Source: Spiribacter roseus
GTDB lineage: Bacteria > Pseudomonadota > Gammaproteobacteria > Nitrococcales > Nitrococcaceae
Length of the DNA: 64,000 nt
Reading direction: 5' to 3'
Assembly (NCBI RefSeq): GCF_002813635.1
Contig: NZ_CP016382.1
Coordinates: 1,426,001 to 1,490,000 of the forward strand
The notes below the pieces were generated by a model that was not told the origin of the DNA, ran no database searches, and saw only the letters and a program-made list of their open reading frames with translations. Positions 20,745 to 26,704 of the stretch are shown in pieces (the first letter of the stretch is position 1; each line of letters starts with the position of its first letter). The position numbers and the translations under genes are program-made.

Positions 20745-22019
20745 ATGCCAGTCGTCACCCTGGGGCTCAACCACGAATCCGCACCGCTCGCCGTCCGCGA
20801 GCAGGTGGTGTTGTCGGCGGAAACGCTGGACAGTGCACTGTCCGCGCTCGCCGAGCGCCCCGGCGTGCGCGAAGCCGCGGTATTGTCCACCTGCAACCGC
20901 ACCGAGATCTACGCGGTCCTGGCGCCTGAGGCCACTCCGGCCATCCTGCATCGCTGGCTGGCCCAGCAACAGGATCTGGACCCGGACTGGCTCGATCCGT
21001 ATCTGTACACGCTCGAGGGCCGGGATGCCGTTGTCCATCTCCTGCGGGTGGCCGCGGGCCTGGACTCGCTGGTGCTGGGCGAACCGCAGATCCTCGGCCA
21101 GGCCAAACTGGCCTATCACTCGGCCGCCGGCGCCGGACTCCTGGGCCAGATCCTGGACCGGCTTTTCCAGCATGCGTTTTCGCTGGCGAAGCGCGTGCGC
21201 ACCGAGACGGCGATCGGCGCCCATCCGGTGTCGGTGGCGTTTGCCGCGGTCACCCTGGCCCGTCAGATCTTCGATCGACTGGATCGCCGGCGCGCGCTGC
21301 TGATCGGCGCCGGGGAGATGATCGAACTCACCGCCCGGCACTTCCGCGAGCAGGGCATGGGTGAGCTGGTCATCGCCAACCGTAGCCGCGAACGGGCCGA
21401 GTCACTGGCAAGCACCTGTGGCGGCAGCGCGCTGGGACTGGACGAGCTTGAGGCGTTCCTGCCCCGTGCCGACATCATCATCTCCTGCACGGCCAGCCCC
21501 GAGCCGGTCCTCCACTACGATCAGGTCCGCGCAAGCCTGCGCCAGCGCCGCCATGAGCCGGTGTTCATGGTCGATCTGGCAGTGCCGCGGGATATCGAGA
21601 CCCGCATCGACCAGCTCGAGGATGTCTACCTGTACACTGTCGATGACCTGCGCGATGTCATCGACCGCAATCAGCGCAACCGCGCGGCGGCCGCCACCGA
21701 GGCGGAGGCCCTGGTCCAGGAGCAGGCCGACCGGTTCATGGACTGGGTGCGCACCCTCGATGCGGTCAGCGCCATCCGACGCTTTCGGCGCCACGGCGAG
21801 CGACAGCGCGAGTATGCCCTCGAGCAGGCACGCCGCGAGATCAGCGCCGGCCAGCCCCCGGAACAGGTGCTGGAGGCACTGGCGCACCGACTGACCCGCA
21901 AACTCCTGCATCTGCCCACGCTGGGCCTGCGTGAGGCGGCCCGCAGTGGCGATCCGGAAACCATCCGGCAGAGTCGTCGCATGCTGGGCATCGACGAAAG
22001 CCGGGACGACGACGAATGA
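20745..22019 (+). CDS. hemA: Glutamyl-tRNA reductase
   Basis: HemA reduces glutamyl-tRNA to glutamate-1-semialdehyde, the first committed step of tetrapyrrole synthesis by the C5 route. From the ATG at 20745 the protein has 424 residues. The nucleophilic Cys is Cys50 in [27 protein letters not shown] and the NADPH-binding [15 protein letters not shown] follow, with the C-terminal dimerisation helices. The frame is open far upstream, but that part is antisense to the TPR gene and has no family match. The hemA stop overlaps the prfA start (ATGA). Confidence 0.97.
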
Positions 22020-23104
22020 ACGACAACCTGCGCCGCAAGCTCCAGAGCCTTCTGGAGCGCCATGAAGAGATCGAGCAGTTGCTCGCCGACCCCGAGGTGA
22101 TCGGCGACAACCGCGAGTTCACCCGCCTCTCGCAGGAGTACTCGCGACTCGAACCGCTGGCGGCCACGCTGACGGCGTTCGAATCGGCGGAAACCGATCT
22201 GGCCCACGCCGAGGAGCTGGCCGAGGACGGCGACGAGGCGATGCGGGCGCTGGCCGAAGAGGAAATTGCCACCGCCCGTCGCCGTCTCGAGTCGCTTGAG
22301 CGGGATCTGACGCTGCTGATGATCCCCGAAGATCCCAACGACACCCGCAACACCTTCGTCGAGATCCGTGCCGGAACCGGCGGGGACGAGGCCGCGCTTT
22401 TCGCCGGCGATCTGCTGCGGATGTATCTACGCTACGCCGAACAGCAGGGCTGGCGGACCGAGCTGCTCAGTGAAAGCCCCGGCGAACAGGGCGGCTACCG
22501 CGAAGTGGTGGCGCGCATCGCCGGCGATCGGGTCTACTCAAGGCTCAAGTTCGAATCCGGCGCTCACCGGGTCCAGCGCGTGCCCGCCACCGAGTCCCAG
22601 GGCCGCATCCACACCTCGGCCTGCACGGTCGCCATCCTGCCCGAAGCCGGGGAAATTGATGAAATCGAGATCAACCCCGCGGATCTTCGCGTGGACACCT
22701 TCCGGGCCTCCGGCGCCGGAGGGCAGCACGTCAACAAGACGGACTCGGCCGTGCGCATGACGCATCTGCCCAGTGGCGTGGTCGTGGAATGCCAGGAGGA
22801 ACGCTCTCAGCACAAAAACCGGGCCAGGGCCCTGTCCCTGCTGCAGGCGAGATTGATGGACCAGCAGCGGGATGCGGCGGTGGCCGAGCGGACCGAGACC
22901 CGACGCCAGCTGGTGGGCACCGGTGATCGATCCGATCGCATCCGTACCTACAACTTCCCGCAGGGCCGGGTCACCGACCATCGGATCAATCTGACCCTGT
23001 ACAAGCTGGAGTCGATCCTCGCCGGCCATCTTGAATCAGTGATCGACCCGCTGATCAACGAGCACCAGGCCGACCAGCTCGCCGAGCTGTCGGCCGAACA
23101 GTAA
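22016..23104 (+). CDS. prfA: Peptide chain release factor 1
   Basis: RF1 terminates translation at UAA and UAG. 362 residues. The anticodon-like PAT motif is at residues 190-192 ([10 protein letters not shown]) and the catalytic GGQ at 235-237 ([15 protein letters not shown]). The GGQ glutamine is the target of PrmC, whose gene lies 2 kb downstream here rather than directly after prfA. The start overlaps hemA by four bases. It converges on dksA with a 15-base gap. Confidence 0.97.
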
Positions 23105-23119: not shown

Positions 23120-23551
23120 TCAGGCGACGCGCTGTTTCTCGCGGATCTCCTCGAGCGTCTTGCAGTCGACGCACAGCGTGGCGGTCGGCCGGGCCTCAAG
23201 CCGGCGGATGCCGATCTCGACACCGCATTCATCGCAGTACCCGTAGTCGTCCTTGCGGATCCGCTCCAGGGTCTTGTCGATCTTGCGGATCAGCTTGCGC
23301 TCGCGATCACGGGTGCGCAGCTCGAGGGCGAATTCCTCTTCCTGGGTCGCCCGGTCGGCCGGATCGGCGTAATGATTGGCGTCATCACGCATATGACTGA
23401 CCGTGCGCTCCACCTCTTCCTGCAGCTGCTGTTTCCACGCGCCGAGGATCGCCTCGAAATGCGCCAGCTGGGCCTCGCTCATGTAGGCCTCATCGTCGGC
23501 GGGCTGGTACGGCTCGATGCCGCGCACGGGCAGAGAAGCATTATCGGTCAT
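23120..23551 (-). CDS. dksA: RNA polymerase-binding transcription factor DksA
   Basis: DksA works with ppGpp in the secondary channel of RNA polymerase during the stringent response. The start at 23551 is chosen because GGAGG lies six bases before it; an ATG four codons upstream is itself part of that ribosome-binding site. This gives 143 residues with a coiled coil (about 30-95) and a four-Cys zinc site at Cys106, Cys109, Cys127 and Cys130 (CDEC, CVDC). It has its own likely promoter at 23578-23606. Confidence 0.95.
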   Translation of the reverse strand: MTDNASLPVRGIEPYQPADDEAYMSEAQLAHFEAILGAWKQQLQEEVERTVSHMRDDANHYADPADRATQEEEFALELRTRDRERKLIRKIDKTLERIRKDDYGYCDECGVEIGIRRLEARPTATLCVDCKTLEEIREKQRVA

Positions 23552-23577
23552 GGTTACCTCCATTGGCTCGACCGCTC

Positions 23578-23628: not shown

Positions 23629-24702
23629 TCAGGCGATCCGCGCCTGAAGCGGTTGTGAGAGTTTTGCCGCGGCCTCGCGCAGCACACGCTCAGTGGTCGC
23701 CCAGTCAATGCAGCCATCGGTGATCGACACGCCATACTCAAGGGCCGACGGATCGTCGCCGAGCTTCTGCTTGCCCCAGCCGATCTGGCTCTCGATCATC
23801 ACTGCGACGATCGACCGGTTTCCTTCGACAATCTGATTGACCAGATTATCCATGACCAGCGGCTGCAGCCCCGGATCCTTGTTCGAATTGGCATGGCTGC
23901 AGTCCACCATCAGGCAGGCCGACAGCCCTTCGTCCGCCAGCGCCTTTTCGCACAGCGCAATGCTCACCGAATCGTAGTTGGGCTGATCACCGCCGCGCAG
24001 CACCACGTGTCCATAGCGATTGCCGGCGGTGCGGATGATCGCCGAGCGGCCATCGTGCTGGGTGATCCCCAGAAAACTGTGCGGGCTCGCCGCCGAGCGC
24101 ATGGCGTTGATGGCCACATCCAGGCTGCCGTCGGTCCCGTTCTTGAAGCCGACCGCCGTTGACAGGCCACTGGCCATTTCGCGATGGGTCTGCGACTCGG
24201 TGGTGCGGGCACCGATCGCGGTCCAGCTGATCAGATCACCCAGGTATTGCGGTGTAATCGGGTCGAGCGCCTCGGTACCGGCGGGCAGCCCGAGTTCCGC
24301 CAGATACAGCAGAAGATCGCGGGCCCGGCGGAGCCCCTCCTCGATGTCGAAACTGTCGTCCATGTAAGGGTCATTGATCAGGCCCTTCCAGCCCACCGTG
24401 GTGCGCGGTTTTTCGAAGTACACCCGCATGACGATGAACAGCGAGTCACTGAGCTCGTCATGCAGCGCCTTCAGTCGCCGGGCGTAGTCCTTGGCCGCGT
24501 CAAGGTCGTGGATCGAGCAGGGGCCGATCACCACCAGCAGGCGCGGGTCCCGGCCGTCGAGGATCGCCTCCACCGCAGCGCGGCCGGCCTTGACGGTCTC
24601 CTCGCCCGACGCCGAGAGGGGCTGCCGCGCCTTGAGCTCGGCCGGTGTGGGCAGCGGATCCTGGGCCAGGACGTTCAGGTTGTCGATGGGGGTCTCACTC
24701 AT
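23629..24702 (-). CDS. aroG: 3-deoxy-7-phosphoheptulonate synthase (type I DAHP synthase)
   Basis: DAHP synthase condenses PEP and erythrose-4-phosphate, the entry reaction of the shikimate pathway. 357 residues, AroF/G/H type. The PEP/metal motifs VVIGPCSIHD (near residue 60), PRTTVGWKGLINDP, GFKNGTDGS and VDCSHANSNKDP are intact. Which aromatic amino acid inhibits it cannot be read from the sequence with certainty, so the symbol stands for the family. Divergent from the Trm112-like gene across a 136-base region in which I see no other gene. Confidence 0.93.
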   Translation of the reverse strand: MSETPIDNLNVLAQDPLPTPAELKARQPLSASGEETVKAGRAAVEAILDGRDPRLLVVIGPCSIHDLDAAKDYARRLKALHDELSDSLFIVMRVYFEKPRTTVGWKGLINDPYMDDSFDIEEGLRRARDLLLYLAELGLPAGTEALDPITPQYLGDLISWTAIGARTTESQTHREMASGLSTAVGFKNGTDGSLDVAINAMRSAASPHSFLGITQHDGRSAIIRTAGNRYGHVVLRGGDQPNYDSVSIALCEKALADEGLSACLMVDCSHANSNKDPGLQPLVMDNLVNQIVEGNRSIVAVMIESQIGWGKQKLGDDPSALEYGVSITDGCIDWATTERVLREAAAKLSQPLQARIA

Positions 24703-24800
24703 GGCGTGTTGATCTCACTATGAACGTTATCGTCGATATCCGCATGGTAGCCCGGCGGCCGGATTTTCTCCACGCCCCGGGGCGCTGCCGGCCGGCAGTC

Positions 24801-24809
24801 TGCTATCCT
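24801..24809 (+). promoter_or_regulatory. possible extended -10 promoter for ycaR-prmC-moeB
   Basis: TGC followed directly by TATCCT (24804-24809) makes an extended -10 element 30 bases before the ATG at 24839. No convincing -35 is present. It lies over a TTG that would extend the ycaR frame upstream, which argues for the shorter protein. Confidence 0.3.
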
Positions 24810-24838
24810 TGGCCATCATCCCGACAGGTTCAATCGTC

Positions 24839-25105
24839 ATGGCTATCGATCGCAAATTACTCGACATTCTTTGCTGCCCGGTGACCAAGCAGCCGGTGCA
24901 TGTGCTGGGACGACGCGAGCTGAAGGCGCTGAACGAGCGCATCAACGCGGGCGACGTCCACTACCAGGACGACAGCCCCGTCGAGACGCCGCTCGAGGAG
25001 GGCCTGGTCACCGCCAATGAAGAGCGCATCTACCGGGTGGATGACGGCATCCCGGTGATGCTCGAAGAGCGCGCCATCAACCTGCGGGCCGCCGACCTGA
25101 AGTGA
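24839..25105 (+). CDS. ycaR: Trm112-like protein (UPF0434/YcaR family)
   Basis: A small Trm112-like domain protein of 88 residues, starting MAIDRKLLDILCCPVTKQPV and ending with the family's IPVMLEERAINL. In eukaryotes Trm112 is the zinc-binding partner that activates methyltransferases, including the release-factor methylase Mtq2; the bacterial role is not settled. E. coli YcaR (about 60 residues) lies near kdsB, whereas here the gene overlaps prmC (GTGA). The second Cys of the usual CPxC is Thr (CPVT), the later Cys is missing and about 25 residues are inserted, so the zinc site is probably lost. Confidence 0.85.
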   Translation: MAIDRKLLDILCCPVTKQPVHVLGRRELKALNERINAGDVHYQDDSPVETPLEEGLVTANEERIYRVDDGIPVMLEERAINLRAADLK

Positions 25106-25953
25106 CCGGGGCGGTGACGCTGGCCGAGGCCCGGCAGCGCGGGCAGCGGATGCTCGACGCGGTCAGCGTCAGTGCCGCCGTGGATGCGGACTGGCTGCTG
25201 GGCGCCGCCACCGGGCAATCCGCCGCGCAGCGCCGGGCCCATCCCGAGCAACCCCTGGCGGAGCCGGCCTGGCGGCGCTATCAGGGACTGCTCCAGCGGC
25301 GCTATCGCGGCGAGCCCGTCGCCTATCTGCTGGGCCGCTGCGGCTTCATGGACTTTGAACTGGCGGTGACGCCGGCGGTGCTCATCCCGCGCCCCGAAAC
25401 CGAACATCTGGTGGAGGCGGCACTCGAGTCCCCGGCCGCCCGGGTGCTCGAGCTGGGCACGGGCAGTGGTTGCATCGCCGTCGCGCTGGGCCGTGCCTGG
25501 CCCAACGCCCGTATCGACGCCACCGACCAGTCTGCCGAGGCGCTGACTGTGGCCAACCAGAACGCGGCGCTGCTCGGCGTCGGCAATCTGCGCCTGCGCC
25601 AGGGTGACTGGTACGAGCCGGTCGGCACCGCACGCTACGACCTGATCGTGTCCAATCCGCCCTACATCGGGCCCGCCGAGCCGGAGCCGGATCAGGGCGA
25701 TGCCCGCTTTGAGCCGCGTGCGGCGCTGCGTGCGGACGAATCGGGGCTGGCCGCGCTGCGCATCATCATCGAGGGCGCCGCCGCGCATCTCGAAGACGCC
25801 GGCCGGCTCTGGGTCGAACATGGGCATACCCAGGGGCCGGCGGTGCGGGAATACCTGGCCGCCCAGGGTTTTGAGGCCATCGAGACCCGGCGTGATCTGG
25901 CCGGGCACGAGCGGATCAGCGGTGGCCGCCGGGGAGCACAGCGCCATGAATGA
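25102..25953 (+). CDS. prmC: Release factor glutamine methyltransferase PrmC
   Basis: PrmC methylates the GGQ glutamine of RF1 and RF2 with S-adenosylmethionine. 283 residues, starting at a GTG overlapping the ycaR stop (GTGA). An N-terminal helical domain (1-75) is followed by the Rossmann domain with LELGTGSGCIAVALG (SAM loop, about 117-131) and the substrate-glutamine motif NPPY at 185-188. Pseudomonas-like order would be hemA-prfA-prmC-moeB; here prfA has been separated from prmC by dksA, aroG and ycaR. Confidence 0.95.
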   Translation: MTGAVTLAEARQRGQRMLDAVSVSAAVDADWLLGAATGQSAAQRRAHPEQPLAEPAWRRYQGLLQRRYRGEPVAYLLGRCGFMDFELAVTPAVLIPRPETEHLVEAALESPAARVLELGTGSGCIAVALGRAWPNARIDATDQSAEALTVANQNAALLGVGNLRLRQGDWYEPVGTARYDLIVSNPPYIGPAEPEPDQGDARFEPRAALRADESGLAALRIIIEGAAAHLEDAGRLWVEHGHTQGPAVREYLAAQGFEAIETRRDLAGHERISGGRRGAQRHE

Positions 25954-26704
25954 CGAGCAGCTGATCCGCTACAGCCGGCAGATCATGGTGCCGGGTCTGG
26001 ACCTTGACGGTCAGGCCCGGCTGTTGGCCAGCCGTATCCTGCTGGTGGGTGCCGGGGGGTTGGGCTCGGCAGTGGCACTCTATCTGGCCGCGGCGGGGGT
26101 CGGGCACCTGCGGGTGGCGGATTTCGATCGGGTCGAGCTCACCAACCTGCAGCGCCAGATCCTCCACGGCACGGCGGACATCGGCCGGCTGAAGACCGAC
26201 TCGGCCCGCGACCATGTCGCCGCGCTCAACCCGGAGGTCACCGTCGAGCCCATCGAGCAGGCCCTGGACGCCGATAATCTGCCCGCACTGGTCGCCGATG
26301 TGGATCTGGTGATCGACGGCTCCGATCGGTTCTCCACCCGCTTTGCGGTCAACGCGGCCTGTGTGCGGGCCGGCCGCCCACTGATCACCGGCGCTGTCAT
26401 CGGCATGGACGGACAGGTGGCCGTCCTGCGACCGGATCTGGAGGGCCCCTGCTACCGCTGCCTGTACGCCGATACCGGCGAAGAAACCCTTGGCTGCAGC
26501 GAAACCGGGGTGCTCGGGCCGCTACCCGGTGTCGTCGGCAGCCTGCAGGCCGTGGAGGCCATCAAGGTACTGACCGGGCTCGGGGAGCCGCTCAATCATC
26601 GTCTGTTGATGGTGGATGCAATGGATCAGCGCTGGCGGCGCATCGAGCTGCGCCGCGACCCCGCCTGTCCGGTGTGTGGCAGCGCCGCGAGTCAGTGGGA
26701 CTGA
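25946..26704 (+). CDS. moeB: Molybdopterin-synthase adenylyltransferase MoeB (HesA/MoeB/ThiF family)
   Basis: An E1-like enzyme that adenylates the C-terminal glycine of a sulfur-carrier protein such as MoaD. 252 residues from the ATG at 25946, overlapping prmC by eight bases. The nucleotide loop VGAGGLGSAVALYLA, DFDRVELTNLQRQ, two zinc CxxC pairs (CYRC and CPVC) and GPLPGVVGSLQAVEAIK are present. MoeB and ThiF cannot be told apart reliably by eye; the position after prmC matches moeB of Pseudomonas. The 3' end overlaps convergent hslO by 13 bases. Confidence 0.88.
   Translation: MNDEQLIRYSRQIMVPGLDLDGQARLLASRILLVGAGGLGSAVALYLAAAGVGHLRVADFDRVELTNLQRQILHGTADIGRLKTDSARDHVAALNPEVTVEPIEQALDADNLPALVADVDLVIDGSDRFSTRFAVNAACVRAGRPLITGAVIGMDGQVAVLRPDLEGPCYRCLYADTGEETLGCSETGVLGPLPGVVGSLQAVEAIKVLTGLGEPLNHRLLMVDAMDQRWRRIELRRDPACPVCGSAASQWD

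Follow-up and report, generated by a model that had tools for sequence, protein, structure and literature searches.

In the bacterial order to which Spiribacter roseus belongs, whose members are mostly salt-loving, the gene for a Trm112-like protein is linked to prmC, and the link is genuine and old within the order. The gene prmC lies directly downstream of trm112, on the same strand, in all 49 of the order's loci in which the contig continues. We interpret the pair as an order-specific, translationally coupled operon that is retained mainly for expression, and assign this reading a probability of about 0.6. The window, the 64,000-nucleotide stretch of S. roseus DNA that was analysed, contains the genes prfA, dksA, aroG, trm112, prmC, moeB, and hslO in this order, with dksA, aroG, and hslO on the minus strand. 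The features of the locus are:

22016..23104, plus strand: prfA, encoding RF1, the substrate of PrmC; the usual upstream neighbour of prmC elsewhere (TIGR00019, 533.5 bits)
23120..23563, minus strand: dksA, within the block that separates prfA from trm112 (TIGR02420, 169.4 bits)
23629..24702, minus strand: aroG-like DAHP synthase gene, divergent from trm112 (TIGR00034, 490.2 bits); within 500 bp of trm112 in 24 of 48 loci of the order
24839..25105, plus strand: long-form Trm112-like gene, 88 amino acids (PF03966, 2.3e-9; length class of XF2673, PDB 2K5R, 6.4e-20)
25102..25105, plus strand: GTGA overlap, the GTG start of prmC lying within AAG-TGA at the end of trm112 (from the sequence and the conservation of AAGTGA)
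25102..25953, plus strand: prmC, release factor N5-glutamine methyltransferase, 283 amino acids (TIGR03534, 258.4 bits; PF17827 PrmC_N; NPPY at 185–188)
25946..26704, plus strand: moeB-like adenylyltransferase gene overlapping the end of prmC (NF004281, 335.3 bits); adjoins prmC in 34 of 46 loci of the order

The open reading frame coordinates and profile matches bear out the four-base overlap of a Trm112-like gene with prmC that had been described in an earlier note on this DNA. The start of moeB lies inside the end of prmC (25946–25953), so that trm112, prmC, and moeB are three overlapping genes. The genome (1.93 Mb, one contig) has no Trm112 match besides the gene at 24839–25105.

The product of the upstream gene reaches 37.4 bits against the Trm112p profile PF03966, which has a cut-off of 22. 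The protein has this Pfam family in common with E. coli YcaR/UPF0434, but differs from it in gene context and has about 25 additional residues between the CP motif and DGIPVML; the insert is located between CCPVT and YRVDDGIPVML. The identity of YcaR proper was rejected, because the protein scores 20.6 bits against the NCBIfam YcaR model NF008806 (equivalog cut-off 126; 88 versus about 60 amino acids) and belongs to a longer subfamily. The closest solved structure is that of XF2673 from Xylella (PDB 2K5R), which is of the same long-form subfamily and aligns over 80 residues at 6.4e-20, followed by the structures of short UPF0434 proteins. The two differ in that the long forms of Xylella relatives (Lysobacter, Luteimonas, Dyella, and others) are unlinked to prmC. 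The zinc-knuckle cysteines (CX3-4C ... CX2C) are absent from the 88-residue protein, which has only the adjacent C12 and C13; human Trm112 likewise binds no metal (PMC6796863). The methyltransferase-binding face, formed in human Trm112 by L8, L9, I113, P114, and L117 (PMC6796863), is kept: among 19 sequences L7, L8, P72, and L75 are invariant and I71 is at least 90% conserved, with the human and bacterial residues matched by hand according to the LL and GIPxML motifs.

The overlapping GTG at 25102 is the supported start of prmC. Taken by itself, the window would also allow prmC to start at a second GTG (25114), whose Shine-Dalgarno match is somewhat stronger (−4.7 versus −2.5 kcal/mol for GTG 25102). 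The AAGTGA junction is kept across the Spiribacter and Nitrococcus loci, and in five loci (L003, L006, L011, L012, and L017) the GTG within it is the sole prmC start before residue ~28. No further start follows in these loci for 89–242 bases, and a later one would truncate the N-domain deeply. It is this lack of another early start in the congeners that supports GTG 25102. Loci L022 and L080 have a TAATG junction, and in other loci prmC starts 1 to ~35 bases past the trm112 stop; in Halorhodospira-type members the genes are separated by non-overlapping gaps. The kept overlaps and short gaps show that trm112 and prmC are tightly coupled, and the translation of prmC would proceed by reinitiation at the junction. 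A sigma-70 consensus scan of positions 24500–26100, which can miss high-G+C promoters, revealed no recognisable promoter- or terminator-like sites.

In the family-level survey, the gene was found in 22 of 23 genomes, with prmC next to it in 22 of 22. The order-level survey identified long-form trm112 in 50 of 54 genomes, at 51 loci. Two of the loci end at a contig edge and were left out of the adjacency count, whereas locus L177, where two profile matches overlap, was read by hand and is among the 49. The adjacency is thus far from confined to one genome. The flanks of the pair vary while the pair itself persists: aroG and moeB accompany it at the frequencies given above, and the Nitrococcus loci contain the pair without aroG and moeB as neighbours. 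In L172 the pair is inverted relative to aroG-dksA-prfA and has moved as a unit. The invariant adjacency despite the varying flanks, and the joint movement in L172, speak for a coupled operon. That the arrangement arose once, in one order, is what chance adjacency without meaning would also produce; nevertheless, retention at every testable locus amid changing flanks, together with the kept start-stop overlap, makes chance highly improbable. An assembly artefact was rejected as the source of the linkage, since the arrangement is present in many independent genomes.

The four genomes of the order without Trm112 have no detectable prmC either, and their assemblies are fragmented. One of them (G007) has zero PrmC-family matches, and the others have only weak ones, at 36–39% identity and with no adjacent prmC, which resemble the second, PrmB-like match of the window's genome (L209). 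Such joint absence is expected if the two genes form one locus that lies on a missing contig. One bin (CAJXKI01, G280) contains two distinct trm112-prmC-moeB loci, L062 and L063, and may represent mixed strains or a duplication. Locus L093 (JAAYIK010000033.1) is labelled Lysobacteraceae, yet has the gene layout of the window's order and is probably misnamed.

Outside the order, the pair was not found. For the short YcaR-type Trm112, the best prmC was located within 5 kb of the gene in none of 108 genomes of the class, and prmC adjoined it in none of 30 class loci and none of 30 loci from a phylum sample. The long form, at E ≤ 1e-16, occurs in 21 of 370 class genomes; prmC was within 1.5 kb of it at none of 17 sampled loci outside the order, and no prmC was present near the outside-order long-form loci among 80 named loci, for which up to 10 kb was searched. 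Lineages with a long form unlinked to prmC include Dyella, Lysobacter, Rhodanobacter, Luteimonas, Salinisphaera, SUP05, and others, in which its neighbours are purE/purK, nadC, ATP sulfurylase (sat), DAHP synthase (aroG), or unrelated genes. Adjacency is thus seen at every testable locus of the order and at zero of the loci tested beyond it. Viral contigs that were searched contained no long Trm112 and only three PrmC relatives. Long-form trm112 is located within about 3 kb of aroG in several unrelated lineages (L070, L073, L078, L084, L095, L097, L101, L109, and L113), a proximity also seen in the window's order. Two metagenome-assembled genomes labelled Bacteroidetes and KSB1 (L079 and L083) encode long-form Trm112 proteins of 54–55% identity in a common gene context, which indicates mislabelled bins or transfer.

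The many prmC-unlinked long forms and the conserved binding face are consistent with Trm112 being the adaptor of another methyltransferase, with tRNA, rRNA, or protein as the substrate, so that its pairing with prmC would reflect only the co-regulation of translation-related methylation. The function of bacterial Trm112 was called unknown in a 2017 review, which described some of these proteins as fused to methyltransferases (PMC5372719). However, no consistent methyltransferase neighbour of the long form was seen outside the order, and we consider this explanation rather unlikely.

The eukaryotic precedent raises the alternative of a bacterial Trm112-PrmC holoenzyme, in which the GIPxML strand and the N-terminal Leu-Leu face of the long-form Trm112 would contact PrmC, with Trm112 stabilising PrmC or aiding SAM binding, as in Mtq2/N6amt1-Trm112. 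Like the Mtq2/N6amt1(HEMK2)-Trm112 holoenzyme, the pair combines a Trm112-like protein with a GGQ-glutamine methyltransferase, and the Trm112-like protein keeps the LL and GIPxML face and is missing the metal ligands, as is human Trm112. The invariant adjacency and overlap also speak for a complex. In contrast to N6amt1, which docks Trm112 via ten hydrophobic residues at a defined interface (PMC6796863), PrmC has an additional N-terminal domain and no full hydrophobic docking patch. The window's protein qualifies as PrmC, with a TIGR03534 score above the cut-off of 199.1, the PF17827 N-domain, and the NPPY motif. The N6amt1-type patch, mapped using the SAM-site residues E51, D77, and D103 as sequence anchors and not by superposition, is hydrophobic at a mean of 5.5 of 10 positions in PrmCs of the order and 5.1 of 10 in Trm112-unlinked outgroup PrmCs; the window PrmC has 3 of 10 and N6amt1 10 of 10.

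Four loci (L068, L071, L074, and L093) are naturally in-frame read-throughs of the two genes. The read-through fusions of L068 and L093, predicted by AlphaFold2 from a 46-row alignment with a short linker and few paired rows, have pLDDT values of 94.2 and 95.8, and pTM values of 0.80 and 0.83, respectively. We estimate that a floating Trm112 would give a pTM of ~0.73–0.76 and docking one of >0.9; the values obtained fall between the two and are well under the docked value. Trm112 is only loosely placed in both models, with an implied mean error of ~7–12 Å, which is somewhat better than free floating and to that extent speaks for a complex. Within the L068 model, PrmC superposes on E. coli PrmC at 1.3 Å (TM 0.96), and bacterial PrmC has been reported as active by itself (PMC5372719). 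The Trm112 and PrmC distances from 30 genomes correlate at 0.63, but the partial correlation is −0.04 once aroG is regressed out; by this measure there is no co-variation of the two proteins beyond ancestry. PrmC is the fastest-evolving of the three proteins across the order, with a median distance of 0.84, compared to 0.62 for Trm112 and 0.36 for AroG. Given the patch, the distances, and the reported activity of PrmC alone, a eukaryotic-like holoenzyme appears unlikely. It is slightly more doubtful still that the PrmC of this order depends on Trm112 as a bacterial counterpart of Mtq2-Trm112 with a contact surface unlike the eukaryotic one. The earlier suggestion of a Trm112-PrmC partnership, or at least co-regulation, thus divides: co-regulation is well supported by the order-wide adjacency, the GTGA/TAATG overlap or short gap, and a junction with no recognisable promoter or terminator, whereas for partnership nothing positive was found beyond gene order, and the same subfamily is unlinked to prmC in Xanthomonadales, Salinisphaera, and SUP05.

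For the order-specific coupled operon, the outgroups indicate the likely origin. Of 19 outgroup prmC loci, 12 have prfA immediately upstream, several with moeB near; because the outgroups mostly keep the prfA-prmC link, it is in the window's order that the link was broken. The simplest history would be a single event, in an ancestor of the order, that placed a DNA block ending in long-form trm112 between prfA and prmC. As in the prfA-prmC (hemA-prfA-hemK) operon, prmC remains second to a translation-related gene; the difference is that dksA and aroG separate it from prfA and that trm112 is directly upstream. On leaving its position behind prfA, prmC would have become the second gene of a single trm112-prmC(-moeB) transcript, on which ribosomes would pass the GTGA/TAATG junction by termination-reinitiation. 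The pair was probably retained because the expression of prmC, a gene required for normal termination, relies on trm112 upstream of it; a possible secondary benefit is that two proteins of translation-related methylation are supplied together. The Trm112-like protein is probably still the adaptor of some class I methyltransferase through its LL/GIPxML face, and the client need not be PrmC. However, the stability of the pair over ~17 genera, through several rearrangements and the gaps of Halorhodospira-type members, exceeds what a frozen overlap needs and so allows for a functional tie between Trm112 and PrmC.

The trm112-prmC link is apparently undescribed so far. It is unreported in the 2017 review (PMC5372719), and neither such a link nor a function of bacterial Trm112 was found in the later open-access literature on bacterial Trm112, UPF0434, or the gene context of PrmC; the absence of a report is not proof. 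With its invariable link to a single methyltransferase gene, this clade offers a first client candidate for bacterial Trm112. Of the groups covered here it is the most promising in which to seek such a client, and the proteins of Spiribacter, Alkalilimnicola, and Halorhodospira are well suited to this. If PrmC is not the client, the pair still clearly illustrates how an important gene can switch its operon partner.
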